A stretch of DNA of 64,000 nt, taken from assembly GCA_030123605.1 (NCBI GenBank), contig CP126123.1, forward strand, positions 62,001 through 126,000, written 5' to 3'. Shown here piece after piece: positions 1 to 48,000 of the stretch. Each line of letters starts with the position of its first letter. The stretch's first letter is position 1. A model generated the notes under the pieces. The model was not told the DNA's origin and searched no databases. It was given only the letters and a program-made list of their open reading frames with translations. Source of the DNA: Nitrospira sp. (GTDB lineage: Bacteria > Nitrospirota > Nitrospiria > Nitrospirales > Nitrospiraceae). A program made the translations under genes and the position numbers.

Positions 1-609
1 GGCTGTGTTGGGATCGAGTCGGCGCGGAGCCACCAGCCGCGAGAGTGTGCGTTCCGGATGGTCGTTAAGAATTTGCTGCAGCGTCGCGCGCGGCGAGGGA
101 TCGGGCGTCGAGCGTTGGCCTGCCACGATTTGGGCATGGGCCCAAGCCCATGACTGGTCGAGGTCCGGCAAATCTTCCAGGACGCAAGTGATCGTCGGCA
201 AGGGCCGCTGCGGGTTGGTCTTGAGAGTCGCCCGTTCTTTCGGGATGACGATCAAGCAGATCCAGGGACGGAGGCGCCGCGCGGTATCTGCCGCCGCCGG
301 GGTGAAGAGCCATGGAAAATCCGGGCGATCGAATTCGATGGCCGGAAAATAATTCGGTTCGAAATCGGTCATGTGGGCATGGGGTTCCGTGCGAATGATC
401 TCGCGCGCGTCGAGGCCTGTGATGTCGCCGGGGCCGTAGAGTTGTACGTTGACTTCGAGAGGCGCGCGGTCGTTCACTCGAAGCCGAACGGGCAGCGCGA
501 GGCGTCCCGCCGTGGGCTGGCTGGAGGCGCCGGGGTCGGAGAGGCCCGCGAGGAGTCCTTGGCGGAGCCAGGAATAAAAGCGATAGGTGGCTGCGGTCGG
601 TTCAGGCAT
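1..609 (-). CDS. Conserved protein of unknown function, 3' end outside window
   Basis: An open frame starts at ATG 609 and runs off the left edge without a stop, giving at least 203 residues. The start lies 20 bp after the stop of the giant gene upstream, so this is the fifth visible gene of the operon. The protein opens MPEPTAATYRFYSWLRQG and is rich in Pro, Arg and aromatic residues (for example YGPGD near residue 58 and FEPNYFP near 83). It has no signal peptide, membrane segment or recognisable catalytic motif. I do not recognise the family with confidence. The role is inferred only from co-transcription with the two DUF6603-like proteins and the subtilase. The reading frame itself is well supported by the tight spacing and by the absence of stops over about 600 nt. 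Confidence 0.75.
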   Translation of the reverse strand, partial: MPEPTAATYRFYSWLRQGLLAGLSDPGASSQPTAGRLALPVRLRVNDRAPLEVNVQLYGPGDITGLDAREIIRTEPHAHMTDFEPNYFPAIEFDRPDFPWLFTPAAADTARRLRPWICLIVIPKERATLKTNPQRPLPTITCVLEDLPDLDQSWAWAHAQIVAGQRSTPDPSPRATLQQILNDHPERTLSRLVAPRRLDPNTA

Positions 610-629
610 GGTCTGTCATCCTATTTCAA

Positions 630-3600
630 TTACAACCTGGCTGTTGTTGCACTCACCCGTCGTCGTTTGCGCGCGGGGGCCTGGCCGGCGGCGCCGAAGG
701 GGGCGACCCGGGCCAGCACGGCCGCCGAGAGCACATAGCCCGGCTTCGGCCGCTCCGGCGGCCGCGTCGGATCAAGCAGGAGCGTCTCATAGGCAATCGG
801 CGCCGCGAGGCCCAGCTCGTCGTCTACGGCGAGATCGTCCGCCGCCAGGGTGAGGCCGCCGTCGAGTGGCATAAAGGCCGGCTGCGCCAACTGCTCATCC
901 TCCCGCAGGTCCTCGAACTGGGCCAGGGCGAAGGGCTCATGCACCGGCGTCGTGCGCCAGGGGGAGGCCCCGGCGCGATCGGTCACCGAGACCGTCACCG
1001 TCGTGGGCCCGCCGACCAGCGGTGCGGTGCCCAGCTTCGTGAATCGTCGGTTCAACGGGGCAATCCGCTCCCGCACCGTCAGCTCCGCCCAGGGATGCAC
1101 CCGCAGTCCGGTGGGTGGTGGGGTGGTCTCTCTGATGGTCACGACGGGCGCACTACTGCGGGGCACCGTCCCGTTCCAATTGCGCTGGTCGGCCAGGGCG
1201 GCGGCGATCAAGCTCACCACATCCACGGCCGCGGGGAGCGGCGGGGCAGCCTTGCTCCCGAAGGTCCGTGAGAAGGACACCGACACCGAGAAGAACAGAA
1301 TCTTGATCTTGGCCTTGCCTTCCACGTGCCAGGGCGTGGGCCCGGCTAATCGGCCCTTGAACGAGATGCCCATCAATAAGCGGCCGTGATAGCGCAGGGC
1401 CAGCGCGGCGCCGACCTCCACCTCAAAGGCCAACGGAGTCAATTGGATGAGCGCATCGAAGCCGAGCATCCCGTCGAAGCTGAAGCCGCCGCCGGCTGCA
1501 TGCAAATCTACTCGAGCGCCGAACTGCACCGTATTGGAGGTGACCGCCAGATAGGCCTGACAGCGCAACTGGAGCGAGTCGCCGTCGGCCAGTTGCAGGG
1601 CCAGTCGCTTCAAGGCGGGCAGGCCCGGTGGCGCGGCAAAGCGGGGATGGAAGCCGCCGATCGCCAGCACAAATTGTGGCTCTCGGCCCCAGCCCGCGCG
1701 CAAGGCCATGTCGCCGGTCAGGGTGAATTGCAGGATGCGTGACTCATAGAGCGTCGCATCCAACGCCACGGTCTCGGCACTCACATCCAGCACACCCAAG
1801 GCATCCATGCGAATCTGGATGAGCGGATGGGTCTGGTTCGGCAGCAGGACTTGCAAGCGACCGAGCACGATCATCCGAACGGGGCTGGGCAGTTCGACCA
1901 GCAGGGCCAGGTCGAGCGTGAGCAGGGTCGGCGTGCCCCAGCGCAGTTGCACCATCGGGCCGAGCACATGGCGGCCCGCCGTCGGGGGGAACACCCGGCG
2001 CAGGTCGCTGAAGATCTGCAGGGCATTGCGCAGCGGATCAGGCGGAAACAGGATCGCATTCAATGTGCCGGTCTTGAGGCCCTCGCGCAGGACGTCGGTG
2101 CGCACGGTGCGGTGCAGGGCCACGAGGCCGCCGATGCCGGTCAAGGTGAAACCCAAGCCGATGGGGATCGGCGCGAAGCCTTCGGCGGTCAAGAGGATCA
2201 CGAGCGAGTAGCCCTTGTTGCCGTCGGGCAATCTGGTGGTGAGGAGGCCCAGGGCTTTGACGGCGATGGTCTCAGCCAACTCCAGCTGCAACATGCCGCT
2301 GTATTCGGCGCGTTGCGAGTCGAAGCCCAGGAAGCCGCCGCCGGTGACGCCGCCCGTCGCGATCGCGAGGCCTAATCCTGAAGGGGGCTTGAAGCCGAGC
2401 GCGAGGTCGGCAACTCCCAGATTCCCGCCGCCAGGAGGAAGCCGGAGGGTTGCAGTGAATCCCACCTGGTCGACGGTGGCCGTCACCGGGCCCAGTCTGA
2501 TGGCGGCGCTGGTGGTGGCTACGATATCGATACCTTGGCCTTCGCCGATCGACGAACGGACTGCGAGTCTCAGCAACTCGATCGAAATCGTATTGAGCAG
2601 GGTAACGTGCAGCGGCAGGGTCGCTTCGAATCCCACGGCGCCTTGCAGCGAGAGCCCGCGACGGAACGACCACTCACCGGCCAGATTGAAAGGAATGGTA
2701 AGACCGTCTTTCGGGAACACCTGTCCGAGAAAACCATCGGCTTTGGAGAAATCAAGCACCACCTGGCCGCGTTCTACGGCGAAGGCAAATGCCGGGTCCA
2801 CTGCGGCGCGAGCCGGCGCCGCAGAGTCGATGTGCAGATCCAGCTTCACGGAGGACCGGAGGCCCTGCAAATCCAGACGAGACCCCTCTGCCGAGCCGAT
2901 CACGACAAAAGGTTCGGCGTCGCCCTTGCGGGCGAACTGAGCCCCTACGGTCACATTCAATGCGGTTCCCGTCGGCAACTGGAAATCGAGATCCAAGGGC
3001 GGACGAATAGAAGCGGTCAGATCACTGCTCACGCGGACGATCGTGTCGAAGGTCACCTGCCACGCGCCTTCGGTAATGGTGTCGCTGCGCTCGATCGAGG
3101 TCGGGGCGCGCAACGTGATGTCCAAGCCGGGGGGCGAGAACGCCGGATTCACTTCCGCGTTGAATCCGAAGGCTTCCAGCAATGCCGGTTCACCGGCCGG
3201 ATGCAGGATCTCGGCGGGAATGCCGAACTTCTCGCTCAGTAATCTCTGCAACATTCTGAACAGCGTCAGACCGTCGAACGAGGGCGCACCCCAGCCATAG
3301 ACTTCACGCAACAATCCAGCCGGGTCGATGAAGAGTCGCAGCAGGCGATTGAGATGCAGGGTCTTTCGGACGTAGGGACCTTGGAGTGATCCCGTCGGCA
3401 GGCCAGGCTCGTCCACGACCTCGATCGCGCCGATGCCGAGCAGCAGCAGCGCCACCTGAGGGAAGCGGATTTCGAGGTAGTCGGCCACGAGACGGTGCAG
3501 GAGCCGCTCCGGGAATACCTGAGCGAAGGCGGCGAGTTCAGTCTTGTGTTGAGGGGAAAGGGCGGTGGCGTTGCTGAGCATGTGGAGGGCCCGCGCCATT

Positions 3601-3914
3601 CCCTCGATGTCTTGGAGCGTCGTGCGCAGTTGTTGCAACAAGGCAGCGGCGGTAGAGGCAATGGCCACGCGATCGTCCTGCGTCACCGCTTGGGCTAGGT
3701 CGTTGATTAATGAATCGAGTTCGGCGGCAGCTGAGACGGTGGCGGTCAGCGCGTCAGTCAGCCCGGTCGTGTCCGGCTCGATCTCGAAGACGCGCAGGCC
3801 CAACCAAGGCAGCAGGTCGTCCAACGTACCGGTTTCGGCGCGCAGGACCAGCGGTTCGAAGACCCGTGCAAGTTCACCGGCCAATTGTTCGAGCGACCCG
3901 ACGGCTGTACTCAT
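630..3914 (-). CDS. Giant DUF6603-like protein, copy B (1094 aa)
   Basis: The product has 1094 residues. The first ~495 are specific to this copy: a helical N-terminal part, then beta-rich sequence with alternating hydrophobic residues. Residues ~496-1087 form a conserved block (beginning near GNLGVADLALGFKPPSG) that is almost identical to the same block of the second giant gene in this operon. The block resembles the DUF6603 family by its Gly-rich amphipathic strands (GLGLAIATGGVTGGGFLG, IPIGLGFTLTGIGG); this is recall, not a search result. There is no signal peptide and no catalytic signature. The start ATG 3914 overlaps the stop of the upstream subtilase gene by 4 bp (ATGA), which suggests translational coupling. 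The function is unknown. The repetitive amphipathic beta pattern would fit a long groove or barrel-like scaffold, but that is inference. Confidence 0.85.
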   Translation of the reverse strand: MSTAVGSLEQLAGELARVFEPLVLRAETGTLDDLLPWLGLRVFEIEPDTTGLTDALTATVSAAAELDSLINDLAQAVTQDDRVAIASTAAALLQQLRTTLQDIEGMARALHMLSNATALSPQHKTELAAFAQVFPERLLHRLVADYLEIRFPQVALLLLGIGAIEVVDEPGLPTGSLQGPYVRKTLHLNRLLRLFIDPAGLLREVYGWGAPSFDGLTLFRMLQRLLSEKFGIPAEILHPAGEPALLEAFGFNAEVNPAFSPPGLDITLRAPTSIERSDTITEGAWQVTFDTIVRVSSDLTASIRPPLDLDFQLPTGTALNVTVGAQFARKGDAEPFVVIGSAEGSRLDLQGLRSSVKLDLHIDSAAPARAAVDPAFAFAVERGQVVLDFSKADGFLGQVFPKDGLTIPFNLAGEWSFRRGLSLQGAVGFEATLPLHVTLLNTISIELLRLAVRSSIGEGQGIDIVATTSAAIRLGPVTATVDQVGFTATLRLPPGGGNLGVADLALGFKPPSGLGLAIATGGVTGGGFLGFDSQRAEYSGMLQLELAETIAVKALGLLTTRLPDGNKGYSLVILLTAEGFAPIPIGLGFTLTGIGGLVALHRTVRTDVLREGLKTGTLNAILFPPDPLRNALQIFSDLRRVFPPTAGRHVLGPMVQLRWGTPTLLTLDLALLVELPSPVRMIVLGRLQVLLPNQTHPLIQIRMDALGVLDVSAETVALDATLYESRILQFTLTGDMALRAGWGREPQFVLAIGGFHPRFAAPPGLPALKRLALQLADGDSLQLRCQAYLAVTSNTVQFGARVDLHAAGGGFSFDGMLGFDALIQLTPLAFEVEVGAALALRYHGRLLMGISFKGRLAGPTPWHVEGKAKIKILFFSVSVSFSRTFGSKAAPPLPAAVDVVSLIAAALADQRNWNGTVPRSSAPVVTIRETTPPPTGLRVHPWAELTVRERIAPLNRRFTKLGTAPLVGGPTTVTVSVTDRAGASPWRTTPVHEPFALAQFEDLREDEQLAQPAFMPLDGGLTLAADDLAVDDELGLAAPIAYETLLLDPTRPPERPKPGYVLSAAVLARVAPFGAAGQAPARKRRRVSATTARL
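654..2429. repeat. Direct repeat copy 1 (~1.78 kb), C-terminal half of giant gene B
   Basis: This segment is nearly identical to 6384-8159 (constant offset 5730). It covers the 3' half of the giant gene. The copies differ by scattered single bases and by two clustered patches (near 1835-1905 and 2010-2060). Identity stops abruptly at ~2429/8159 and, at the other end, just before the stop codons. Confidence 0.93.
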
Positions 3915-6343
3915 GGTTGCGGCATGGTCCGTGATTCAATCGAGGCCGTGACACTCTCCGTCAGCAGCATGGACACGAACGAGTGGTACCGGTCGAGGCT
4001 CTGCCGCAATCGTGGGCTACCCTGTCGGGCCAGCAGGTCCAGGCAGCGGTCGAGGTATCGAGAGGCCGAGTCTTTCGCGATCGGCAGGGGACCGTCACCG
4101 GCGCTCGGGCCGTGCAGCAGTCGCCGTAGGAGCGCCGGTCCCGCCGCGCGATGCCACAGAGTCGCAATGCGCCGGTTGCTGTTGATCAGGCGCCGGGCTT
4201 CGCTGAAGTGCCGGCTGATGGCGGCGGCGACGTGTTCGCCTTCCGGATAGTCTTTAAGACGCTCGCGGAGCGTGCGGAGCCAGGAGGTGAACGGCGCAGG
4301 GTTCCCGGTGAAGGCCGACGCCTTTGGCTCGCGCTGGAATGATCCATCCAAGCCGGACGGTGGATGGATACGAGGGACGCCTCCTCCGCCACCTCCACCG
4401 CCCCCGGCCCCGCCGCCCCCGGCGGCTGCCGCGCGCACGGCATCGATGGCGGCTTGGATGTTGAGTTTTCCACCGCCCCAGGTCGTATCCCATCCGCCGG
4501 TCGGTCTTTCGCGCGCCGTTGCTTGCAGATGGCGGACGATGTCGGCTCTGGTGAGCCGGGGATTTTCCTCCAAGAGCAGCGCAATGGCCCCGGCCACATG
4601 CGGGGCGGCCATGCTGGTGCCGGTCAGGTCTTCATAGAGACAGCAGCAGGCATCGGGGCAGCAATCGCAACAGCGGCCGCGCAGGTTGGCGGCATCGGCT
4701 TTGGCGGATGTGATCTCTAACCCCGGTGCCGCGATGTCAGGCTTGCGGTTGGCCGCAGCACCTCTCGCGACGGGGCCTCGGCTCGACGAGGAGACGATCC
4801 CGGTCGAGGGCCAGCAGTCACAGCGGCTCGTGCGCGAGGCGTGGTTGGCGACCGTGATGACTTGGGATGCGGTGCCGGGAATACTGAGTGTCGCGTCGAG
4901 GCTCGCTCGCACCTTGCCGTCATCGGGAGTTTTCGGCGGAAGAAACCAGGGCGTGTTCGAGCCGCGCTCGATCCAGCAGTGAAAATCGACGGGTGCGGCA
5001 TTGGGGTTCGTGAGTGTGAGCTTCCAGGAGCCGTCGAGGACGGCGCCACGGCGAGGACGTTCCACGGTGATCCGAAAGTTATTGTCGCGGTCATGTTCGC
5101 CGTTGATGGTGCCATCTACCGCGACGTGAGTTTGCCGGTTGGCGGGAGCCGCGGGATTGGCGATAAACGGCGGGGCGGCGGCATTGGCCGGGAGGTCGGT
5201 GCCATGGTTGACGACGCCGGTGGCGACGCCGCCGGGCGCAGTGACGGTCAGGTTCAGCGTGCCGGCCCGGTCATACCAGAGGTCGAGTAACGCGTCGGAC
5301 CTGCGCTCCTTCGGCATCTCGAATTCAACGTCCAGATTGCCGTTCCCGGGCACGCGACCTTGCACGTGTCGCAACATACCGCCTTCGTTGCCGGCCGATT
5401 TGACGACGATCTGGGGATGGTGGAGAAAGTCGCCGGTTTCGACGTGAGCGTCGATCGCGAGTTCCACGGCGCTCGTGCCGTCATGAGGCCCCAGGTTGTC
5501 ACCCTGACTGATGTTGATGACCTTCGGTTTGTCGATGCTGCCGAGAAAGCTGAAGATGAAATCGATCGCTTCGATGAGGCGTTGGTTTTCGCCGATCGCG
5601 TCGTCGTCGGTGTAGTCGTATCGCACGACGATGAGTTCAGCCTCCGGGGCGACACCGACATACGTCTGGCTGACGTGGCAGCAGGTAGGAGGTCTGCCGT
5701 TGCCTGCCGCGATGCCCGCGACGTGGGTGCCATGGCCTTCCCGGTTGTTGCTGGCATCGACATCCTTGGTGCGCACCCTGGCTCGACCCTTGAGCGCTTG
5801 GGTGAGCTGATCCTGGTCGTAGACAACGCCGATATTGTTGGGGCCTCTTGTGTCGCCGGCTCGAAAGGACAACATGTGATCCCAGATTGCGAGAATCCTC
5901 GATTTCCCGTTCGCATCGACGAACGAACCGTGCCGCCAATCGATGCCGCTGTCGATGATGCCGACCACGACGCCCTTTCCCTTGCGTGAGAGGGGACCTG
6001 TGTGCACGGCGGTCGCGCGGATTTCCTGCAGGCTGAAGTTCAGTTCGCGATGCATGCGGCGCGGCCCTTCCACGGTCGTGACGTGGGGGATCGCTGCGAG
6101 GGCGTCGAGCCGGTCGAGGGCGATGGTGCCGGTGGCGATGCTGTACCCCTTGCGAGGATGACGGACGAGCGTGCGCTGCACGAAGCCGACGGCGGTCAGG
6201 TCCTCCACGTTACCGGTGAAGCCGACGATGACGCCTACCTGCTCGTCCTTCGCACGGGAGCGTGTTTTCGGTGCGGCTGCCGTACCGGCGGCCTGTTTGG
6301 TACGGAGTTTCGATCGTAGTCCGGGATCGAGTTTTTTGTTCAT
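3911..6343 (-). CDS. Subtilisin-like serine protease (S8 family), no signal peptide
   Basis: The product has 810 residues from ATG 6343, which follows an AGGA Shine-Dalgarno-like sequence 10 bp after the upstream stop. A longer frame continues into that upstream gene but reads out-of-frame sequence, so it was not used. Residues ~35-97 look like an I9-type propeptide. The catalytic triad is visible: Asp131 in IIDSGID, His204 in EGHGTHVAG and Ser577 in TGTSMAAPHVAG, with the oxyanion Asn319 in SAGNEGG. An insertion of ~110 residues (350-460) lies between the Asn and Ser blocks. A Cys-dense stretch, CCDCCPDACCC (558-568), directly precedes the nucleophile loop. A poly-Gly linker (641-655) leads to a helical C-terminal domain. 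No secretion signal is present, unlike most S8 proteases. The gene lies between two giant DUF6603-like genes, so those proteins or their partners are candidate substrates. Confidence 0.93.
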   Translation of the reverse strand: MNKKLDPGLRSKLRTKQAAGTAAAPKTRSRAKDEQVGVIVGFTGNVEDLTAVGFVQRTLVRHPRKGYSIATGTIALDRLDALAAIPHVTTVEGPRRMHRELNFSLQEIRATAVHTGPLSRKGKGVVVGIIDSGIDWRHGSFVDANGKSRILAIWDHMLSFRAGDTRGPNNIGVVYDQDQLTQALKGRARVRTKDVDASNNREGHGTHVAGIAAGNGRPPTCCHVSQTYVGVAPEAELIVVRYDYTDDDAIGENQRLIEAIDFIFSFLGSIDKPKVINISQGDNLGPHDGTSAVELAIDAHVETGDFLHHPQIVVKSAGNEGGMLRHVQGRVPGNGNLDVEFEMPKERRSDALLDLWYDRAGTLNLTVTAPGGVATGVVNHGTDLPANAAAPPFIANPAAPANRQTHVAVDGTINGEHDRDNNFRITVERPRRGAVLDGSWKLTLTNPNAAPVDFHCWIERGSNTPWFLPPKTPDDGKVRASLDATLSIPGTASQVITVANHASRTSRCDCWPSTGIVSSSSRGPVARGAAANRKPDIAAPGLEITSAKADAANLRGRCCDCCPDACCCLYEDLTGTSMAAPHVAGAIALLLEENPRLTRADIVRHLQATARERPTGGWDTTWGGGKLNIQAAIDAVRAAAAGGGGAGGGGGGGGGVPRIHPPSGLDGSFQREPKASAFTGNPAPFTSWLRTLRERLKDYPEGEHVAAAISRHFSEARRLINSNRRIATLWHRAAGPALLRRLLHGPSAGDGPLPIAKDSASRYLDRCLDLLARQGSPRLRQSLDRYHSFVSMLLTESVTASIESRTMPQP

Positions 6344-6353
6344 GGGGTCATCC

Positions 6354-9300
6354 TCATGACCGCCCGACCAGCTCGGTTGTGCGCACCCGTCGTCGTTTGC
6401 GCGCGGGGGCCTGGCCGGCGGCGCCGAAGGGGGCGACCCGGGCCAGCACGGCCGCCGAGAGCACATAGCCCGGCTTCGGCCGCTCCGGCGGCCGCGTCGG
6501 ATCAAGCAGGAGCGTCTCATAGGCAATCGGCGCCGCGAGGCCCAGCTCGTCGTCTACGGCGAGATCGTCCGCCGCCAGGGTGAGGCCGCCGTCGAGTGGC
6601 ATAAAGGCCGGCTGCGCCAACTGCTCATCCTCCCGCAGGTCCTCGAACTGGGCCAGGGCGAAGGGCTCATGCACCGGCGTCGTGCGCCAGGGGGAGGTCC
6701 CGGCGCGATCGGTCACCGAGACCGTCACCGTCGTGGGCCCGCCGACCAGCGGCGCCGTGCCCAGCTTCGTGAGTCGTCGGTTCAACGGGGCAATCCGCTC
6801 CCGCACCGTCAGCTCCGCCCAGGGATGCACCCGCAGTCCGGTGGGTGGTGGGGTGGTCTCTCTGATGGTCACGACGGGCGCACTACTGCGGGGCACCGTC
6901 CCGTTCCAATTGCGCTGGTCGGCCAGGGCGGCGGCGATCAAGCTCACCACATCCACGGCCGCGGGGAGCGGCGGGGCAGCCTTGCTCCCGAAGGTCCGTG
7001 AGAAGGACACCGACACCGAGAAGAACAGAATCTTGATCTTGGCCTTGCCTTCCACGTGCCAGGGCGTGGGCCCGGCTAATCGGCCCTTGAACGAGATGCC
7101 CATCAATAAGCGGCCGTGATAGCGCAGGGCCAGCGCGGCGCCGACCTCCACCTCAAAGGCCAAGGGAGTCAATTGGATGAGCGCATCGAAGCCGAGCATC
7201 CCATCGAAGCTGAAGCCGCCGCCGGCTGCATGCAAATCTACTCGAGCGCCAAACTGCACCGTATTGGAGGTGACCGCCAGATAGGCCTGGCAACGCAACT
7301 GGAGCGAGTCGCCGTCGGCCAGCTGCAGGGCCAGCCGCTTCAACGCGGGCAGGCCCGGTGGCGCGGCAAAGCGGGGATGGAAGCCGCCGATCGCCAGCAC
7401 AAATTGTGGCTCTCGGCCCCAGCCCGCGCGCAAGGCCATGTCACCGGTCAGGGTGAATTGTAGGATGCGTGACTCATAGAGCGTCGCATCCAACGCCACG
7501 GTCTCGGCACTCACATCCAGCACACCCAAGGCATCCATGCGAATCTGGATGAGCGGATGGGTCTGGTTCGGCAAGCGCACTTGCAGTCGGCCCAAGACGA
7601 CCACCCGAATCGGCGCAGGTAATTCGACCAGCAGGGCCAGGTCGAGCGTGAGCAGGGTCGGCGTGCCCCAGCGCAGTTGCACCATCGGGCCGAGCACATG
7701 GCGGCCCGCCGTCGGCGGGAACACGCGGCGCAGGTCACTGAAGATCTGCGGAGCGTTCCGCAAGGGATTGGGCGGAAACAATACGGAGTTCAAGGTGCCG
7801 GTCTTGAGGCCCTCGCGCAGGACGTCGGTGCGCACGGTGCGGTGCAGGGCCACGAGGCCGCCGATGCCGGTCAAGGTGAAACCCAAGCCGATGGGGATCG
7901 GCGCGAAGCCTTCGGCGGTCAAGAGGATCACGAGCGAGTAGCCCTTGTTGCCGTCGGGCAATCTGGTGGTGAGGAGACCCAGGGCTTTGACGGCGATGGT
8001 CTCAGCCAACTCCAGCTGCAACATGCCGCTGTATTCGGCGCGTTGCGAGTCGAAGCCCAGGAAGCCGCCGCCGGTGACGCCGCCCGTCGCGATCGCGAGG
8101 CCTAATCCTGAAGGGGGCTTGAAGCCGAGCGCGAGGTCGGCAACTCCCAGATTCCCGCCTGATTCGGGGAAATCAAGGTGTGCGGACATGCCGATGCCTT
8201 CGATCTGAATGGTGAGGAGACCGATCTTTAGGCCCGGATCGAACATTGCCCGAACGGTTATTCCCTGGTCTTCCGTGGCGATCCCTATCCGGAGTGCGCC
8301 CAACATGACCGGCCCGATGGATCGATTGAGCGGCCACCTCGCCTCGAGTCCCGCATGTCCGCCGAAATGCACACCGGTACGGCTGGACCAGCCGATGGTG
8401 AAATCAAGATCGGTAGAAAGACCTTGAGGCGGGAGGACGCCAGCCAGGAAGTTGTCCCCATCGGAACCGGAGATGGCCAGATGTGCCTGTTTGACGATCA
8501 GTTCAAGCGAGGCGTCACGGGTCGTCGCGCCGAGGTGAAATTCACCAGCGATTCGCAAGGTGCCGAAGGTGAACCCTGTTCCGCTCGCGCCACCGACCGC
8601 GGACTGCGGGGTCGGCATCTCTGTTTCCGGTTCGGCGGTGAGCGCCAGGTGCCAGGCTTCGCCGCCGGAGGTCTCGATATGGTCCGGTCCAACGAGTACT
8701 CCGCGAAGAGAGCCGCTGGTCGTTATCTGAAGGCGCCAATCGTTGACGCGTCCTCGAAAGCTGATCGCACCGAACGGCCGGACCAGAAGCCCTCGCCTCG
8801 CCCGGTCCGCCGAGGAGAGGGCCAGCGTCATGCCGTACAGGTCTCCGTCATGCGGAGACACATATATCGAGAGCATATGCGCGAGCCGTTCGATGGCCGC
8901 TGCTCCGCCCGTCACCGGCACCGCCGGATTGAAACCATAACGGGCGCTGATGCCCAGGAATTGACAGAGGCGGGCGAGTCGCGGAAAGAGTGTGTCGGCC
9001 GCTCGATGTGCGCCGGCCACCGTGGCGAGTGCGTCTTCACCGAAGTATTCCTGTTCGAGCGCACCCACCGGGTCTCGCAGCAGTGGCCCGATGCGATCGA
9101 AACGCAGTTCGCCCCGGCGATGTTCCTCGCGGATCAATTTTGTGCCATCACGGATTGCCGGAAGGAGAGGTCCGTCGGCCGGTGCGACCACCAGCCCGAG
9201 CAACTCGGCGATCACGAAGCTGATCGGCGAGAGTTGAAACCAGTGCGCGATGACGAGGGCTTCGAGGAGCGCTTTGGCAAAATCGTCCAGGTGGGCGGAA

Positions 9301-9608
9301 TCGGCACCGCTGAGTATCCGGCCAAGATTGCGGATGGCTTCAAAAGTTCGCCGCGCCTGTTCGAGGGCGGCGACGAATGCCGACAGCGTCTCGGGCGGGT
9401 TGACCACATGCTGCGTGATGGCCTCAATGCCCTCGGAGATTGTCCGGAGGTCGGCCGCTGCCGCTGCGGCATCGAAACCTACGACCTCATCCAAATCCCA
9501 TCCGACCGCCGAGGCGAGATTGCGCAAATACCCTTCATGTTCCCCGGCGAGCCGGAGAGGCGTGAGGATCACGATCAGGCGATCGAGTATGGAAGAGGTC
9601 TTGGCCAT
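6354..9608 (-). CDS. Giant DUF6603-like protein, copy A (1084 aa)
   Basis: The product has 1084 residues. Residues 1-~480 are unrelated to the N-terminus of copy B; they begin with a helical region (LDRLIVILTPLRLAGEHEG) and pass into beta-rich sequence. Residues ~484-1075 repeat the conserved block of copy B almost exactly, and the last few residues diverge again (RTTELVGRS here, SATTARL in B). There is no signal peptide. The gene starts at ATG 9608, with its start codon 2 bp after the stop of the phosphatase gene. It ends 10 bp before the subtilase start, so all are very probably on one transcript. Function unknown. The fixed C-terminus with an exchangeable N-terminus implies a constant structural module carrying variable business ends; that is inference. 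Confidence 0.85.
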   Translation of the reverse strand: MAKTSSILDRLIVILTPLRLAGEHEGYLRNLASAVGWDLDEVVGFDAAAAAADLRTISEGIEAITQHVVNPPETLSAFVAALEQARRTFEAIRNLGRILSGADSAHLDDFAKALLEALVIAHWFQLSPISFVIAELLGLVVAPADGPLLPAIRDGTKLIREEHRRGELRFDRIGPLLRDPVGALEQEYFGEDALATVAGAHRAADTLFPRLARLCQFLGISARYGFNPAVPVTGGAAAIERLAHMLSIYVSPHDGDLYGMTLALSSADRARRGLLVRPFGAISFRGRVNDWRLQITTSGSLRGVLVGPDHIETSGGEAWHLALTAEPETEMPTPQSAVGGASGTGFTFGTLRIAGEFHLGATTRDASLELIVKQAHLAISGSDGDNFLAGVLPPQGLSTDLDFTIGWSSRTGVHFGGHAGLEARWPLNRSIGPVMLGALRIGIATEDQGITVRAMFDPGLKIGLLTIQIEGIGMSAHLDFPESGGNLGVADLALGFKPPSGLGLAIATGGVTGGGFLGFDSQRAEYSGMLQLELAETIAVKALGLLTTRLPDGNKGYSLVILLTAEGFAPIPIGLGFTLTGIGGLVALHRTVRTDVLREGLKTGTLNSVLFPPNPLRNAPQIFSDLRRVFPPTAGRHVLGPMVQLRWGTPTLLTLDLALLVELPAPIRVVVLGRLQVRLPNQTHPLIQIRMDALGVLDVSAETVALDATLYESRILQFTLTGDMALRAGWGREPQFVLAIGGFHPRFAAPPGLPALKRLALQLADGDSLQLRCQAYLAVTSNTVQFGARVDLHAAGGGFSFDGMLGFDALIQLTPLAFEVEVGAALALRYHGRLLMGISFKGRLAGPTPWHVEGKAKIKILFFSVSVSFSRTFGSKAAPPLPAAVDVVSLIAAALADQRNWNGTVPRSSAPVVTIRETTPPPTGLRVHPWAELTVRERIAPLNRRLTKLGTAPLVGGPTTVTVSVTDRAGTSPWRTTPVHEPFALAQFEDLREDEQLAQPAFMPLDGGLTLAADDLAVDDELGLAAPIAYETLLLDPTRPPERPKPGYVLSAAVLARVAPFGAAGQAPARKRRRVRTTELVGRS
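6384..8159. repeat. Direct repeat copy 2 (~1.78 kb), C-terminal half of giant gene A
   Basis: Partner of 654-2429. Substitutions are concentrated in patches at about 7565-7625 and 7745-7795, while long stretches are identical. This pattern is more typical of gene conversion than of uniform divergence. Confidence 0.93.
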
Positions 9609-9610
9609 GA

Positions 9611-12004
9611 CTATGTCGGAAGTGCCGGTGGAGTGGTTTGTGGGTCCATCGACACGACGAATCGGTTGACGGTCCAGTTGGGGTCAATCGTGGGACGGCC
9701 TCGCCACCATACGTTCTGTACGACTGCTTTGTTGCCCGCCGTCCATTCGAAGGTCACGTCGCCGATGTTGTTGGCTTTGATCACGTGAGACTTCTCCACC
9801 GTCCAGAGTGTCTCGGGGGCGACCAGCGCCATTTCATCCAGTTGGTCATCCAATGTCGGCTGAGCGCGATCGGGTACGACGAACGGAGTGTGATCGGCCG
9901 GGCGATCGGGGGCTACCGGTTCGAGCGTATAGCGCCACTCGGGGGCCGGGTTCATTTTGGGCTCACGCGCGCCCGGTTGGTATTCCATCATCCAGGGGCT
10001 CTGTTTGAAGCGCCAGGGCGAGGTGTTGGGCTCGGAGATCCACGTGAGCGCCGGCTTGTCTTTCCACCCGGCCCAGTGCCGGATACGTTCGTCCTTTAAC
10101 GGCACCACGGTCGGATTGACCCACTTGCAGGGGCTGCTGACCAGTTGCGCCACGACACCTTCGACCGGATCTGCAGTTACTCCGAACGGGGTTCGACTCC
10201 AATACTGCATGCGCATGCAGAAACTACGATGCACATCTCCCGACAAAATGACGACACGGGTTTGGCGCTTTCCGCCGACGAGGTGGGGTGCCCGGTGCAT
10301 GGCATGTGCCATCAACTGTTCGAACCCTGTCGTTTGCGGTTCGTACTTGGCTCCATATTCGGGACCGTAGTCCTGCAATCGAAGAAAGGAGAACAAAGAC
10401 GGAAGCTGGAGTTGAAACAGCGTCAACAGTTTGATCGCCAGGCGGAGGAGCTGAAGCAGGAGAAAGATGGGATGCAACCACAGAATGAGGCGGACCACGC
10501 CGGAGTGCCACTCGCTGGCCACCAACTCGCCCGTACTGATCCCGGGCAGTTCGATGGCGACATTCGAGACCACAATCAGGGAGCACTCGGTTTCGGGGTA
10601 GGCCGCCCGATCTATCTGCTCTCGAAGACCGCCTTCCGAGAGAATGCTGGCGTTTCTGAACTTGTCCGGGTAGGAGCGCCACATGTAGGTGTCGAGCACG
10701 ACGATGCTGAGACCGGGGCAGGGAACTGTGTAGTCCCATCGTATGACGTCGGGGCCGTGAAAACGAGCCCAGTCACGTCCGCTCTTAAAATCGTCTTCGC
10801 CGGGTAGGCCTAGATGGTTGATGAGACGAGCGAGTGGTTCCGCAGGAGACACGGTTCCCGCCCGTTCTGCTTGGGACCAGTCCGAGACGGCGGTGAGGAG
10901 CGCTTGGCCCGGCCCGGTCTCGTATCGATCCGGCGTGTTGCCCCATCCCTGACAGAGCGCATAGGCGGCTAACGCATCTTGGTAGACCCGCCGCCCCATC
11001 GGTTTGGCCAAGACCGATTCCACCCATTCGGCTGTAATATTCCAACTGTTCGACAACTCATGATCGTCGAAGATCATATAGGTCGCGATGTTGGCGAATG
11101 CGCGGCGCACGGCCGGGAGCGTGCCCCGAAAGTCGAAGGCTTTTTTCTGATAGTCGAGATCGTCGGGCCATAGAGAGTCTGCGAATGCGAGGAGATGGAG
11201 GGCCAACGATTCTCCGATGCCGAAGAGGTGTCGAAGAGAGGGCCAAGGACCGGTATTGCTGAGCCCGGCATCGTCGAGCGCATATTCCCATCGCACACCG
11301 GACATCTCGCTGATCTTTTTATCGACACCCGGCATCGTTTCATCCCAACCGAGGAGTGTGGCGGCCGCATCCAGGACCACCTCAAAACAAGCCCGTTCAC
11401 ACCCGTCGTTGTAAATGTTGTCGCCGGTCAGGAAGAGCATATGGGGGCGACGGTCGTTGCCTCGGAACGCCTGCCGGAGAATGTGGTCTGCCGCTTCGAG
11501 GGCATCACTGTGTTCACCCGCGATCTTGCGACAGGAGCCGTGGAGCAGCCGTAGGTCGTCGAGTGAGGCCGGAGGGAGGACGAAGCTTGGTCGCGCGGGA
11601 CCGCCGTCGCCGGCATAGGTCAGTTTGGCGCGAGCCTCGTCGGACGTGGCGGCGACGATGCGCGGGGCGAGCAGGTCGCTGCCGTTCGGAATGTCGTCGC
11701 TCCCGCCGCTGTGGTCGAACGTGAGGTTGTATTGATAAGGTTTTCCCGCAGTGAACGGGGTGCCGGGCTTTGCCGTGACACAGGCGATGTGCAGATTGGA
11801 GCCGACCGGCACTGTGTCCCGCTCGCCGCTGGCCACAACAGGACCGCCTGGCGCATCTCCATCGTAAACCTCCAGTCTGATACGCCGCGGACGTCGCAGC
11901 GCCACCCACGCGGTGGCACCGGTTGGCTCAACCCGTCGAACGATCGGACCTGCTAATACCAATGGAAGCCCGTTCAACCGGTCTTTGAGCGGTGTGAAAC
12001 TCAT
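9611..12004 (-). CDS. PhoD-like metallophosphatase, no Tat signal
   Basis: The product has 797 residues from ATG 12004. The PhoD-type metal-binding motifs occur in order: HGSC (155-158), GDNIYND (194-200), DDHE (313-316) and SGDVH (588-592). The N-terminal ~130 residues look like the beta-sandwich that precedes PhoD catalytic domains (VRRVEPTGATAWVALRRP). Known PhoD enzymes are Tat-exported phosphodiesterase/phosphatases, but no twin-arginine signal or other leader is visible here. An unusual feature is a hydrophobic insertion at ~503-540 between the third and fourth motifs, long enough to dip into or cross a membrane. This is the first gene of the five-gene operon; about 520 bp without a convincing gene lie upstream and probably hold the promoter. 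The substrate cannot be told from sequence. Confidence 0.88.
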   Translation of the reverse strand: MSFTPLKDRLNGLPLVLAGPIVRRVEPTGATAWVALRRPRRIRLEVYDGDAPGGPVVASGERDTVPVGSNLHIACVTAKPGTPFTAGKPYQYNLTFDHSGGSDDIPNGSDLLAPRIVAATSDEARAKLTYAGDGGPARPSFVLPPASLDDLRLLHGSCRKIAGEHSDALEAADHILRQAFRGNDRRPHMLFLTGDNIYNDGCERACFEVVLDAAATLLGWDETMPGVDKKISEMSGVRWEYALDDAGLSNTGPWPSLRHLFGIGESLALHLLAFADSLWPDDLDYQKKAFDFRGTLPAVRRAFANIATYMIFDDHELSNSWNITAEWVESVLAKPMGRRVYQDALAAYALCQGWGNTPDRYETGPGQALLTAVSDWSQAERAGTVSPAEPLARLINHLGLPGEDDFKSGRDWARFHGPDVIRWDYTVPCPGLSIVVLDTYMWRSYPDKFRNASILSEGGLREQIDRAAYPETECSLIVVSNVAIELPGISTGELVASEWHSGVVRLILWLHPIFLLLQLLRLAIKLLTLFQLQLPSLFSFLRLQDYGPEYGAKYEPQTTGFEQLMAHAMHRAPHLVGGKRQTRVVILSGDVHRSFCMRMQYWSRTPFGVTADPVEGVVAQLVSSPCKWVNPTVVPLKDERIRHWAGWKDKPALTWISEPNTSPWRFKQSPWMMEYQPGAREPKMNPAPEWRYTLEPVAPDRPADHTPFVVPDRAQPTLDDQLDEMALVAPETLWTVEKSHVIKANNIGDVTFEWTAGNKAVVQNVWWRGRPTIDPNWTVNRFVVSMDPQTTPPALPT

Positions 12005-40810: not shown

Positions 40811-41197
40811 TCATTTCAACCAGAGCATGGAAGCGGCAAGATAGATGAGACGGGCGAAGTTGCGAGCGCGCTTGGCGGAGCGGGTCGCGACGGCGCGGTA
40901 GTGCTTGAGCTTGTTGAAGCAGCATTCGATACGGTAGCGTTCGGCGTACATGGCGAAGTCGGTGTCGCGAGGGTTCTTGAGGCAGGAGCGTGGCGGGATG
41001 ACGGCCTGTGCCCCCGAACGTCCAACGGCCTCGACGATCTTTGGGCTGTCGTAGCCCTTGTCGGCAATGACGTGTTGCGCGGGAAATCCCGCCAGTAACG
41101 GCTCGGCCTGCGTATAATCCGAGGCCTGCCCCGGCGTCAAGATGAAGCGGAGCGGATTGCCAAGACCATCAACAGCGGTGTGGATTGTGGTGGTCAA
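40811..41197 (-). CDS. IS-1 transposase, downstream frame (orfB)
   Basis: 128 residues as an independent frame; the true product is probably a frameshift fusion with orfA. It holds the second catalytic Asp (IADKGYDS) and the Glu region (YAERYRIECCFNKLKHYR) of the DDE domain. The family reading before its nominal start (ALGRSKGGL) continues from the slippery AAAAGGGGG run. All catalytic residues are present, so the element may still be active. Confidence 0.9.
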   Translation of the reverse strand: MTTTIHTAVDGLGNPLRFILTPGQASDYTQAEPLLAGFPAQHVIADKGYDSPKIVEAVGRSGAQAVIPPRSCLKNPRDTDFAMYAERYRIECCFNKLKHYRAVATRSAKRARNFARLIYLAASMLWLK

Positions 41198-41565
41198 CCC
41201 GCCCTTCGAACGACCAAGGGCCTCCGTCTCTTGAGTCCCCCTTTTGCGCCAGCGGAATGCTGGTGAGCACGGACGCTGGTGGAGTCGATCATCACGTACG
41301 CAACGTCCGGATCACCGGACAGCTGGCGAAACATCCGCTCCCACACGCCCGCCCTCGACCACCGGTTATACCGCTGGAATACGCTGTTCCATACCCCGAA
41401 CTGCTTCGGCAACTCACGCCCGGGCGCACCGGTCCGTGCGATCCATAGCACGGCATCCACACATGTTCGGTTATCCGTCGCCGTCCGCCCCGGATCGCTC
41501 GCCTTGCCAGGCAACAAGTCCTTGATGGGCCTCCATTGATCATCCCGTAACTCGCGTCTCGCCAT
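41194..41565 (-). CDS. IS-1 transposase, upstream frame (orfA)
   Basis: The product has 123 residues from ATG 41565 behind GGAGGGG. It is the DUF4096-like N-terminal part of an IS5-family transposase (RRELRDDQWRPIKDLLPGKA) and includes the first catalytic Asp (MIDSTSVRAHQ). The last ~16 residues are out of frame with the family. The stretch AAAAGGGGG (complement of 41237-41245) is the likely slippage site joining this frame to the downstream one, as is usual in the IS427 group. Confidence 0.9.
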   Translation of the reverse strand: MARRELRDDQWRPIKDLLPGKASDPGRTATDNRTCVDAVLWIARTGAPGRELPKQFGVWNSVFQRYNRWSRAGVWERMFRQLSGDPDVAYVMIDSTSVRAHQHSAGAKGGLKRRRPLVVRRAG

Positions 41566-41698
41566 TCACAACCCCTCCCTTGGGCGTTGAACAGTGAAGC
41601 ACAAGTCACAGCGCGAGGGAAGCTTGAATGTCAACAGAACCTAGACCATTGGCTTGGAAGTTTGCCTGTGCTGAGATGGGACTCTAAGGGAGGGGACC

Positions 41699-41738
41699 AT
41701 GATACACAAACGGCATAAGGAGGAACAGATTATTGCGG
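41699..41738 (+). pseudogene. Truncated IS3-type orfA start
   Basis: A GGGAGGGG ribosome-binding site is followed by ATG and the codons for MIHKRHKEEQIIAV, the typical N-terminus of IS3-family orfA proteins. The reading is cut by the end of the IS-2 fragment. Only 14 codons remain; this is a weak but characteristic relic. Confidence 0.4.
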
Positions 41739-42063
41739 TTCCTCCGCTCCACGATTTCCTTGGACACACCATTGGGGCATACTGCCCCCTGCTGAATGGA
41801 GGTGTTTATGGCGAAATTCAAGACGGAGCGAGGCCGGTGTTCCTCGCGGAAGAAGATGGCGGTCGTGCTCCGCGTCCTGCGTGGTGACGACCTGGATCTG
41901 GTCTCGCGTGACGCGGGCATCACGGCGGCGAAACTGTCGGAGTGGCGGGACCAGTTCGTCACGAGTGGCCAAGCGGCCTTGAAGAGTCAGGCTGCCGATG
42001 GCCGCGACGACGAACTCGTGCGGCTGAAGGCCTTAGTCGGAGAGTTGACGATGCGGCTGGAAC
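41739..42063 (+). mobile_element. IS-2 fragment 1 (left end only)
   Basis: About 325 bp identical to the orfA end of the full IS-2 copy (46568-48000, opposite orientation), including the terminal repeat CCGCTCCACGATTTCCTTGG. It breaks off after GGCTGGAAC, where IS-3 sequence begins. The same chimeric junction recurs at 57587/57590. Confidence 0.85.
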
Positions 42064-42068
42064 GGTGA
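41808..42068 (+). pseudogene. IS-2 orfA, 3'-truncated
   Basis: The product has 86 residues from ATG 41808 (GGAGG site upstream), identical to the first 85 residues of the intact orfA. A stop (TGA 42066-42068) comes immediately after entry into IS-3 sequence. The helix-turn-helix part (LDLVSRDAGITAAKLSEWRD) is kept and the C-terminal leucine-zipper-like part is lost. A truncated DNA-binding protein of this kind could still be made, but no orfB follows. Confidence 0.8.
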
Positions 42069-42129
42069 GGTGGCTCTGGTTGTTTGGACAGTCTTTGGCC
42101 GTTCATAAGTGGTGCCTGGCGGATGAGGC

Positions 42130-42590
42130 CTACGCGGCGACATGCCGTGCGGGCCGATGCTCATCATACACGTCCTCCGGTGTGCGCCCATCGAGTGCCT
42201 GATGTGGCCTGACCTGATTGTAGAACGTCAGATACCGTGCCACCCCCTGCTGGGCCTCGCGGACGGTGTCATAGGCGTGGAGATAGACCTCCTCATATTT
42301 GAGACTCCGCCACAACCGTTCCACGAACACATTATCCCGCCATCGCCCAGCTCCATCCATGCTGATCTGAATGTCATGGGTGTTCAAGAGCCCCGTAAAC
42401 TCCTGGCTCGTGAACTGACACCCTTGATCGGTGTTGAAGATCTCCGGGGTACCATAGCGGGTGATCGCTTCCTGCACCGCCTCCACACAGAAGTCCGTGG
42501 TCAACGTATTGGAGAGCCGCCACGCTAACACCCGGCGACTCGCCCAGTCGAGAATCGCACACAGATAGACGAAGCCGCGTTTCATCGGAA
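42130..42590 (-). pseudogene. IS-3 orfB, 3' exon (C-terminal transposase part)
   Basis: Encodes IPMKRGFVYLCAILDWASRR through the DDE core: Asp in FNTDQGCQFTS and Glu in GRWRDNVFVERLWRSLKYEEV, ending RPARHVAA. It joins exactly to the 5' exon at 46131 if the intron 42591-46130 is removed: 370 + 461 nt give 277 codons including the stop. So the gene is whole only after splicing. As genomic DNA it is interrupted. Confidence 0.85.
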
Positions 42591-42641
42591 GTGGAGTGAG
42601 AGACCGGGCGTAGTCGAACTATCTTCCAGCCTCTCCTCCCC

Positions 42642-42675
42642 GAACCGGACTTGCACCTCTCAGCGCATCCGGCTC
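42642..42675 (-). ncRNA. Group II intron domain V (copy 1)
   Basis: The canonical 34 nt catalytic hairpin. It opens GAGCCGGATGCG and closes AAGTCCGGTTC, with the terminal loop GAGA between. Domain VI follows to the intron 3' end. Confidence 0.88.
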
Positions 42676-42680
42676 TTCAT

Positions 42681-43779
42681 TCAAGCGTTGCTTAAAGCAA
42701 AGGCAACGTCAGCGTAGCGCGATTCGAGAAACGTGCGTTGCTCGTCGCGAATCAGGTACGGGTTCCCTTCCGGGGTCCGCCACCTGAACTGACCTTTGCG
42801 GCTCGTGACGAGGCGCCGAAGCACCTGTTCGCCATGCCACCCACGACTATTCTGCCCCTTCAGTATCCAAGTTCTGGCGCACCCCGGTTCTGGTGCCCGA
42901 ACGTGTTCGCGCATCAGGCTCGGGAATCCTCGCCGATACTTACGCGCAAGCCAATGTCCGAGCTTCCAGAAGACGGTCCGATCCACTCGGCTAAAGACGG
43001 TCGCCGTATAGTCAGTGTATTGATAGAAGTTCGCCCACCCCGAGAGTTTCCGGTTCAGGCTTTCCATCAGGTCCATTCTGTTCACGCTGTAATTGCCAGA
43101 CAGTTCCTTGACCAGCTTGTCCGTGAAGCCCCGGTACTTCTCCCATGGAATCGTCGTGACCGGTCGCAGATGACCGCGTGGTCCCCGCTTGCGAATGATA
43201 CGGTGACCGAGGAAGACAACGCCGTCGTTCACATGGGTAATATGGGTCTTTTCCATATTCAACGTGAGCTTGAGCGTGCCTTCCAGAAACGCCCGGCACG
43301 CCTCGCGTATCGCCTCAGCATGCGCGCGGGTTCCTTTGACGACCACGACGAAATCATCCGCGTAGCGGCAGTAGGATACGGCTGGTTTCCACTGCCGGTT
43401 CTCTCGCACCGCAATCGGTCGCTGTTTGAGAATTCCAAAGTTCCACGCCCATCGGTCCTTGCGCACCTTCTTGCTCAGGTAGTTCGCTTCCATCCAGTCA
43501 TCGAATTCATGCAACATGATGTTGGATAGCAGCGAAGAGATGACTCCCCCTTGCGGAACGCCTTCGCTCGCGGCGCAAAATAGACCCCGATCAACACAGC
43601 CTGCTTTGATCAACTTCCACAGCAGGGCAAGGAAGCGCTGATCAGCGATACGTTTGCGGACGCCTTTCAGCAGCAGGCGGTGATGGACGGTCTCAAAGTA
43701 GCTGGCTAGGTCGCCCTCTATCACCCAGCGACCTGCCGTTCTTTGTTCATCACTTTCCTGCAGCTGCAGTTTGACCGTT
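42681..43779 (-). pseudogene. Intron reverse transcriptase, C-terminal fragment
   Basis: Residues from TVKLQLQESDEQ to the end of a group II intron reverse transcriptase/maturase: GVPQGGVISSLLSN, the YADD active site (CRYADDFVVVVKG), and the maturase X region (NRKLSGWANFYQ). Identical to the corresponding part of the intact protein at 60585-62117. The N-terminal part lies beyond IS-4 at 45034-45467. Confidence 0.92.
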
Positions 43780-43842
43780 TGATCTTCCCCCGATTTCACA
43801 GACACTTCCATAAGTGGGAGAATGAGGAAATCGGAGGACAGC

Positions 43843-44139
43843 ATGAGCACGAAGACACGACGGTCGTATACGGCGGTGTTCAAAGAAGAAGCGGTGCGTT
43901 TGGTACGGGAGTCTGGGCATCCCGTTACACAGGTGGCGCGGGATCTGGGGATTGCCGATCATCTCCTCTACCGGTGGCGAGCGGAGCAGCAGCAGGCAGA
44001 GGAGCGTGGACAGCCCCGGCAATCTCTACAGGCCGAGCAGACGGAACTGGCCCAGCTGCGGCGTGAAAATGCCGTCTTGAAGCAGGAGCGGGATTTTTTA
44101 AAACGTGCGGCGGCGTTCTTCGCGAGGGAGTCCCAATGA
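43843..44139 (+). CDS. IS-4 orfA (copy 1)
   Basis: The product has 98 residues from ATG 43843, with a GGAGGA site; longer in-frame starts read the terminal repeat. The helix-turn-helix (SYTAVFKEEAVRLVRESGHP, VTQVARDLGIADHLLYRWR) is followed by a leucine-rich coiled segment (LRRENAVLKQERDFLKRAAAF), typical of IS3-family orfA. The stop overlaps the orfB start (ATGA). Identical to 60043-60339. Confidence 0.93.
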   Translation: MSTKTRRSYTAVFKEEAVRLVRESGHPVTQVARDLGIADHLLYRWRAEQQQAEERGQPRQSLQAEQTELAQLRRENAVLKQERDFLKRAAAFFARESQ

Positions 44140-44999
44140 GATACCGCGCGATCCAGGAGCACGACCGTCGCTATCCGATCCGCCTGATGTGCCGAGCGCT
44201 GGCGGTCTCCCCCGCGGGGTATTACGCGTGGCGAGGACGTCCAGAAAGTCGGCGGGCGGCCGCCAATCGTACGCTGCTCGTCACAATTCGAGTGCTCCAT
44301 CAGGACAGTCGTCAGACCTATGGCAGTCCGAGCATCTGGCGGGCTCTCCGCAAACAGGGCCACCGGGTTGGGGAGCATCGCGTGGCCCGGCTGATGCGCC
44401 ACGATGGCCTCCGGGCCAAGACCGTGAAGAAATGGCGGGCCACGACGCACTCGTCGCACCGCTTGCCCGTGGCAGCGAACACGCTTGACCGCCAGTTCAC
44501 GGTGTCGCAGCCCAACCGGGTCTGGGCAGGCGATATCACCTACGTCTGGACCCTGGAGGGGTGGCTGTATCTGGCCGTGCTGCTGGATCTGTACTCGCGT
44601 GCAGTCATCGGCTGGGCGATGGGCCCACGATTGACAGGAGATTTAACCGAACAGGCCCTCCGCATGGCGCTCACCACTCGGCTGCCCGAAGCTGGACGCC
44701 TGCATCACTCCGATCGCGGGAGTCAGTATGCCGCAGGGCCGTACCAGCAGCTGCTCACCACGCACGGTATCACGGCCAGCATGAGCCGCAAAGGCAATTG
44801 CTGGGACAACGCCTGCGTGGAGAGCTTCTTCGGGACACTGAAGCGCGAGCTCGTGTACCATCGGCACTATGCCACACGAGCCGAAGCCAAGCAGGACATC
44901 TTCGAATACATTGAGGTGTTCTACAATCGGACGCGTCGGCACTCGACCCTCGGCTATCACTCCCCGGTCGAGTATGAATCGAGGACGGCAGTCGCGTAA
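44136..44999 (+). CDS. IS-4 orfB transposase (copy 1)
   Basis: The product has 287 residues. The N-terminal HTH_21-like region (RALAVSPAGYYAWRGRP) precedes the integrase-type core with all three acidic residues: Asp in VWAGDITYVW, Asp in HHSDRGSQYA and Glu in NCWDNACVESFFGTLK. It is intact and identical to the second copy, so the element was recently mobile. Expression with orfA, or as a frameshifted fusion, is usual for IS3-family elements. Confidence 0.95.
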   Translation: MRYRAIQEHDRRYPIRLMCRALAVSPAGYYAWRGRPESRRAAANRTLLVTIRVLHQDSRQTYGSPSIWRALRKQGHRVGEHRVARLMRHDGLRAKTVKKWRATTHSSHRLPVAANTLDRQFTVSQPNRVWAGDITYVWTLEGWLYLAVLLDLYSRAVIGWAMGPRLTGDLTEQALRMALTTRLPEAGRLHHSDRGSQYAAGPYQQLLTTHGITASMSRKGNCWDNACVESFFGTLKRELVYHRHYATRAEAKQDIFEYIEVFYNRTRRHSTLGYHSPVEYESRTAVA

Positions 45000-45033
45000 C
45001 CAGGTGTCCACGAAACTGGGGGAAGGTCACGTT

Positions 45034-45467
45034 CGTATCGCATGGTGAACACTTCGGGCGGGCCTAAAACCATAGGACGCTCGATGGAAATCACTTTCCC
45101 ATATCGGCTCCATGGCCATCAGCATCGCCCTCTGAACCACTCGATCCCGCAGGCTTGGGATACCTAGAGGCCTCAACTTGCCGTTCGCTTTCGGTATGTA
45201 CACGCGCCGTGCGGGTTGCGGCGTGTAGCAGCCCGCTAACAGCTCGGCACGCATCGTCGACAAGTCATGGTGAAGGGTGCCCTTCATCCTTGCCTTGTCG
45301 ATCCCATCGGCGCCCGGCGTGCTCGCACCACGGGAGGCTAATGTGATACGCGCTGCTTCGGCCAGCCAAGCTCTATCAGCAATCAGTCTCAGGAGTCGAT
45401 CGAACTTGCGTTCTTTGTTCTCCGTGGACCACTTCGCCAGCTTGCTTTGCATTTCACTGATTATCAA
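45034..45467 (-). pseudogene. Intron reverse transcriptase, N-terminal fragment
   Basis: Encodes the first ~144 residues of the maturase from the TTG start (MIISEMQSKLAKWSTENKER, then GASTPGADGIDKARMKG, RPLGIPSLRDRVVQRAM) up to HHAIRT. It is then cut by IS-4. GAGGTG lies just upstream of the start. The rest of the gene is at 43779-42681. Confidence 0.9.
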
Positions 45468-46130
45468 AGGTCTTCACCTCATTGCGGTCAGTTAATTCGC
45501 CAAGCAAACCACTCAAACTGCCCTCCTTCGCCATGTGGCCGGCTTTCCCGGCCTCGGACTACTACGAGGGCTCCGTCAACCTGTACAGCATCGGGGGACA
45601 CACTCCCTTGTCATCTGTACAGGCCTTCCCCAGTTCACATGCTGGACTCCACACACGGGCGAGGTTGCCTATCGCAGTCTTTATCCTTGCGTTCCGCAAG
45701 TCGTCGCGGACGTCACGGTCTAGCTACGCGCTCTCCATGGCTCCCTGCTGGCCAGCCTACATGTCCAGCCATCATTCGCAGTTCCAGTCCATACGTCTGA
45801 CTGGCCCCGATCCGCGTCCTGCCTGTTAGGCGGTGTAGGCAGGGGTGACATTTCAACCCTCAGATGCGTGTCAATAGGTTTGTGTTCCTCAACCGTCCCA
45901 TGCTCAGCCTAGAAGCTCATTTTGGCGTAACCGCTTCGCCGCAAGCCCCGTTTCCCGCGGACTTCGTCACCTTGCCAGTATCCGGCAAGTCACCGCCGCT
46001 TCGGCTCACTCCTTCTCGTAGCAGAGGGAGGGCATGCTCGTATTACCACATCAACTCCATCGAGCAATGCATTCCAGACATGCTCAAGCAACTCAACCCC
46101 AGACAGACGGGCTTCGTTGGCTGGGCATAC

Positions 46131-47935: not shown

Positions 47936-48000
47936 AAACACCTCCATTCAGCAGGGGGCAGTATGCCCCAATGGTGTGTCCAAGGAAATCGTGGAGCGGA

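Follow-up and report, generated by a model that had tools for sequence, protein, structure and literature searches.

Closely spaced genes for a PhoD-like phosphatase, an S8 protease and two giant proteins, none with a recognisable export leader, raise the question of which cellular task would bring such products together. We addressed it on a window (the whole stretch of DNA that was analysed, 64,000 nucleotides, G000:C1:62001-126000) of a single-contig Nitrospira genome of 4.3 Mb. An earlier note on this DNA had described a five-gene operon. The five frames are real, and the spacings given for them (2 bp, 10 bp, a 4 bp overlap and 20 bp) were all exact on recheck, but the operon continues with three more genes (269, 1772 and 571 aa) beyond the window edge, for a total of eight same-strand genes: PhoD-like, DUF6603-A, S8, DUF6603-B, M, coiled coil, G and T. 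Coordinates are those of the window unless given for contig C1 of the genome.

9611-12004, minus strand: PhoD-like partner 1, 797 aa.
6354-9608, minus strand: DUF6603-A, 1084 aa, 2 bp from the PhoD-like gene.
3911-6343, minus strand: S8 partner 2, 810 aa, ATG at 6343, 10 bp from DUF6603-A.
630-3914, minus strand: DUF6603-B, 1094 aa, 4 bp overlap with the S8 gene.
1-609, minus strand: M, the first 203 of 869 aa (whole gene at genome C1 60000-62609), 20 bp from DUF6603-B.
Genome C1 59170-59979, minus strand: coiled-coil protein, 269 aa, outside the window.
Genome C1 53830-59148, minus strand: G, 1772 aa, outside the window.
Genome C1 52112-53827, minus strand: T, 571 aa, outside the window.

The operon thus carries two tandem enzyme-DUF6603 modules and a single M-G-T set, which both modules would feed. 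Internal terminators were not above those of shuffled sequences (12 found versus a mean of 8.5, sd 3.0).

The suspicion that this is a dedicated, conserved set of leaderless proteins was borne out by its distribution; co-occurrence in other genomes had been set beforehand as the refuting test, and the core genes were found together, with their order kept across phyla. Specifically, among 198 genomes of the phylum DUF6603 is present in 19, M in 18 and T in 18, with weak remnants of T in one more; all three occur in the same 18 genomes, and G189 is the only one of the 198 with DUF6603 but without M and T at the thresholds used. A scan of GTDB genomes with the M alignment yielded at least 562 confirmed relatives, from which 76 loci were kept. 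Since these loci came from an M-based scan, the sample is biased towards complete operons, and the separate phylum-wide searches for DUF6603 and T serve as the unbiased check. Core loci are carried by at least 12 named bacterial phyla among the matches listed, and plasmid copies were found in haloarchaea, Streptomyces, Gemmatirosa, Paraburkholderia and Rhizobium. In the phyla listed and on the haloarchaeal plasmids alike, the core reads DUF6603-M-(coiled coil)-G-T, and its genes lie close together (median gaps 15, -4 and 2 bp). Because the same order recurs in many phyla, the operon is far from a chance arrangement, and its invariant machine, located for the most part beyond the window edge, is DUF6603-M-G-T. 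The carriers are mostly environmental bacteria, Gram-positive ones included, and haloarchaea. Two loci bear the titles Lysobacter and Gemmatimonadetes, but at 89% identity to Nitrospira they are probably contigs that were binned wrongly; a genuine Gemmatimonadota case is the plasmid of Gemmatirosa.

Signs of decay were also noted. T fragments with internal stops (G043:C5:276817-277061), in a genome with no match for DUF6603 or M, are read as the remnant of a lost operon, and a second locus of G147 (L054, 7562-13734), in which an amidase-DUF6603 module is followed by a 105-aa stump of M, is apparently a decayed second operon. A viral origin was considered and rejected, as none of the 31 viral-contig stretches matching M patterns encodes a relative; DUF6603 had no match in phage records.

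The two enzymes of the window had been regarded as fixed parts of the system. They turned out to be alternatives in one slot, the gene immediately before DUF6603, which elsewhere holds PLD-like proteins, M64 peptidases, an amidase and others. Among the 79 partners collected from this slot, 29 are PhoD-like, 18 S8, 10 PLD-like and 9 M64 peptidases; rarer occupants are DUF2515 (2), Amidase_2, a beta-lactamase-like protein and DUF4056 (1 each), and 8 have no assigned class. The PhoD-like protein of the window is a remote member of its family (25.1 bits against Pfam PhoD, PF09423, below the 27-bit cut-off), in which the metal-site motifs are present (GDNIY at 194, DDHE at 313, GDVH at 589), as they are in 23 to 26 of 27 PhoD-type partners; it also has a hydrophobic insert near residues 500-540, with the hydropathy maximum at 506. 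The S8 protein matches Pfam Peptidase_S8 (PF00082) with 142.1 bits (E 3e-41) and has intact catalytic D/H/S motifs (DSGI at 131, HGTH at 204, GTSMA at 575); among solved structures, the CspB germination proteases of clostridia are closest to it. Catalytic motifs are mostly intact across the partner enzymes. Two unassigned haloarchaeal partners contain strongly hydrophobic stretches, as would suit a protein inserted in a membrane. A docking domain common to the enzyme classes was looked for and discarded, as no BLAST match was obtained between classes.

Two side observations concern this slot. In four loci (L035, L040, L055 and L112) the S8 partner seems to be divided among two or three ORFs of one strand, which may reflect a frameshift, decay or a true two-gene form. 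Three M64-type operons (L096, L102 and L117) have in common an extra upstream protein of 519-833 aa, perhaps a class-specific accessory.

Both giant proteins are, as proposed, DUF6603-like: A and B match PF20248 at E ~1e-129, with 433.2 and 430.9 bits, respectively, against a cut-off of 27. Their description as two different scaffolds did not hold, as their C-terminal halves are near-identical and their N-terminal halves differ, each matching its partner enzyme.

8166-9608, minus strand: DUF6603-A N-terminal half, aa 1-481, PhoD-class specific, grouping with other PhoD-partnered N-termini.
6354-8165, minus strand: DUF6603-A C-terminal half, aa 482-1084, shared, 90-100% amino acid identity to DUF6603-B.
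2436-3914, minus strand: DUF6603-B N-terminal half, aa 1-493, S8-class specific, helical over about aa 1-230, followed by the start of the beta-meander.
630-2435, minus strand: DUF6603-B C-terminal half, aa 494-1094, shared, an amphipathic antiparallel beta-meander.

In 50-codon windows the N-terminal halves of A and B show 26-36% amino acid identity or less, versus 90-100% in the C-terminal halves, where the longest identical DNA is 390 bp; the switch is abrupt and falls at about residue 490 of B, with 26% identity ahead of it. A structural model of DUF6603-B (mean pLDDT 77.7, pTM 0.53) begins with a helical N-terminal domain, after which come 40 strands averaging 10.7 in length, with a strong alternation of polar and apolar residues (3.02 versus 1.43 +/- 0.20 in shuffled strands). 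With this model the best Foldseek matches were large outer-membrane barrels (FimD, LptD) and ApoB (E ~1e-4). The TM-score of about 0.15 and rmsd above 20 A indicate a common local beta-meander and not a common fold, and the fold of these proteins was rejected for DUF6603; likewise, the PDB matches of the DUF6603 profile were coiled coils aligned to the helical N-terminus and were taken as chance. As a point against the delivery model preferred below, the amphipathic meander would suit a lipid-binding protein or a membrane protein as well.

The relation between carrier and enzyme was analysed on 29 Nitrospira-type DUF6603 proteins, taking the first 400 residues as the N-terminus and residues 480-1000 as the C-terminus. 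N-termini with the same partner class show a mean identity of 70-86%, versus 16-22% for different classes, even inside one genome, an association that none of 500 permutations equalled; the C-terminus hardly differs by class, with a mean identity of 82-97% regardless of partner. Quick trees, with some long branches, gave a comparable result, in that the N-terminal tree has 9 partner-class changes (minimum 8, shuffled mean 37.9) and the C-terminal tree 26. In addition, the partner in other lineages can be predicted with profiles of the Nitrospira N-termini, namely S8 in 6 of 6 cases, M64 in 5 of 5, PLD in 1 of 1 and PhoD in 18 of 25; of the 37 predictions in these four main classes 30 were right, and all seven misses were PhoD, nearly all of them low-scoring for every class. 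At one locus (L129) PhoD and DUF6603 are fused in frame. By sequence, the N-terminus of DUF6603 matches its enzyme class in a lock-and-key manner, and the C-terminus is interchangeable. The two C-termini found within one genome are 95-98% identical, versus a mean of 82-90% between genomes, a pattern suggestive of concerted maintenance of an interface that they have in common. All together, these comparisons of sequences show that enzyme and carrier form a modular, cognate pair tied to a conserved core of several proteins, and we infer an M-G-T complex onto which DUF6603 loads the enzyme.

These three proteins had no match in Pfam, PHROGs or PADLOC, and their alignment profiles gave no credible solved relative in the PDB. 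The M model (pLDDT 81.6) found nothing under E 0.001 when its fold was compared with the PDB and viral models. No profile homology was found between M and T; G and T are fused at L122. Very long M ORFs (2500-2965 aa) at high-GC Streptomyces-type loci were discarded as fusions and are open-frame extensions. As a separate observation, T of two Caulobacter genomes contains, after about its residue 66, an inserted domain that resembles the C-terminal 213 residues of G.

L119 17562-21947: G-like insertion in T.
L123 18750-21866: G-like insertion in T.

As to where the system would act, the reported lack of a visible leader was confirmed, since none of the five proteins has an N-terminal hydrophobic segment. 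By the same hydropathy test, which is crude and no substitute for a trained predictor, a signal-like N-terminus was found in none of the 73 partners and in 3 of the 356 core proteins, versus 49 of 271 flanking ORFs used as a control; in particular, neither the PhoD-like protein of the window nor any of the 73 partners has the hydrophobic N-terminus of a classical PhoD Tat export signal. In some lineages FG-GAP domains are fused on M, Kelch on DUF6603 and a lamin tail on T, and a peptidoglycan-binding domain is fused on a PhoD partner; such domains are typical of extracellular proteins. Because the recognised partners are mostly hydrolases, one of them a peptidoglycan amidase, because leaders are absent and because extracellular-type domains recur, we favour release from the cell and delivery to a target outside it.

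The reading that we prefer, with a probability of about 0.5, is a modular leaderless system of payload, carrier and machine, most likely delivering hydrolases. According to this model, each operon would make one or two variable hydrolases as payload. The N-terminal half of the cognate DUF6603, translated directly after the hydrolase, would physically bind it, and the common C-terminal half, the long amphipathic beta-meander, would dock the loaded carrier on a shared M-G-T assembly, so that one machine could be used by two payloads. The assembly would then exit independently of Sec and Tat, with lysis or some other non-classical route as the probable way out, and reach a target outside the cell, most probably another cell's envelope or proteins. 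More tentatively, we propose a hitherto unrecognised payload machine of both bacteria and archaea, in which the cognate DUF6603 N-terminal half would load the hydrolase and the universal M-G-T set would deliver it, leaderless, to other cells. Antibacterial toxin systems normally need an adjacent immunity gene; we found no recurrent small gene beside the enzymes, and no recurrent flanking family outside the local Nitrospira synteny, which argues against a simple antibacterial toxin. The target may be protected by a compartment, or may be a eukaryote, a predator or a substrate instead of a cell. Neither a holin nor a secretion gene is recurrent beside the operon.

The lack of a recurrent immunity gene is also compatible with a secreted or surface platform that is no weapon and displays or releases hydrolases for scavenging nutrients such as phosphodiesters, lipids, peptides or wall fragments. 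All recognised partners of known class are hydrolase-like, ordinary scavenging exoenzymes belong to the same classes, and the mostly environmental and haloarchaeal hosts agree with such a role. Nutrient exoenzymes, however, normally have the Sec or Tat leaders missing from all the partners tested, and a cognate carrier plus machine of four proteins far exceeds the needs of exoenzyme secretion, so that we regard this explanation as rather unlikely.

Beyond T, the operon of the window adjoins BREX genes.

Genome C1 42004-51891: BREX genes brxA, brxB, brxC and a PglX-like methyltransferase gene, left of the window.

The PglX-like methyltransferase is split in two ORFs (505 and 652 aa), and AbiEi/AbiEii-like genes adjoin. 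This neighbourhood, together with the patchy distribution and with swappable effector enzymes (protease, PLD-like) that resemble those of known abortive-infection systems, would suit an intracellular defence in which DUF6603-M-G-T senses phage or plasmid and frees the hydrolase against the cell's own membrane or proteins. Against it, DUF6603, M, G, T and the PhoD partner all lack a PADLOC match, and the only models that S8 matched there were generic subtilase and IetS ones; in the core proteins neither an ATPase nor a nucleotide-sensing domain was detected; and a peptidoglycan amidase would find no substrate in the cytosol. In other genomes the flanks are mainly housekeeping, for which reason BREX was rejected as a part of the system; defence matches are only scattered there, and the repeated ZorB matches are OmpA proteins. 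We consider a defence role improbable. Elsewhere in the window (40811-48290 and 57169-62668), repeated ORFs resembling fragments of insertion sequences and reverse transcriptases flank a lower-GC stretch (46-48% GC at 48-56 kb) with polysaccharide-type genes.

Finally, a role as accessory cargo for contractile systems, whether T6SS or extracellular contractile injection systems, is very improbable. Sheath-like proteins are in excess among operon carriers (14 of 18 operon-positive genomes versus 5 of 18 operon-negative relatives), but this contrast is confounded by genus, as a sheath match occurs in all tested members of the window's genus, operon-negative G018 included. Moreover, four genomes (G036, G145, G147 and G153, the second and third single-contig) carry the operon with neither a sheath nor a VipA match.

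Several known systems are comparable in part with the delivery model. Polymorphic toxin systems likewise set interchangeable hydrolytic enzymes on a constant delivery part, with a recombination joint between variable and shared halves, but here the enzyme is a separate gene, the variable half lies on the carrier, no immunity gene was found beside the enzymes and the core matches no known trafficking family. Tc (ABC) toxin complexes and Rhs cocoons combine giant leaderless proteins, a large beta-rich carrier and an exchangeable enzyme, as here, but the core proteins of the window have no Pfam Tc or Rhs domain, and M, G and T no PDB sequence match. In type VI secretion, cognate adaptor-effector gene pairs similarly serve one machine, whereas the present operon occurs also in genomes devoid of T6SS or sheath genes, and its carriers include archaea and Gram-positive bacteria.

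The earlier note knew of no described system with this set, and we found none in the open-access literature searched (preprints and most subscription papers lay outside its scope), where no published description of the gene cassette was found and no paper names DUF6603. The Pfam family PF20248, to which both giants belong, carries no assigned function; the partner-specific N-termini and the linkage to M-G-T are new findings for it.

In conclusion, a conserved four-protein core without an assigned function, with two proteins of about 1100 and 1770 aa here, spans two domains of life, with around a dozen phyla, which implies a shared cellular task so far overlooked. The swap rule, by which the N-terminal half reads the enzyme class and the C-terminal half is common, leads to testable predictions of binding partners. 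As a delivery machine, the system would join the short list of leaderless payload systems known so far; in a defence or scavenging role, its logic of cognate carriers would be new all the same.
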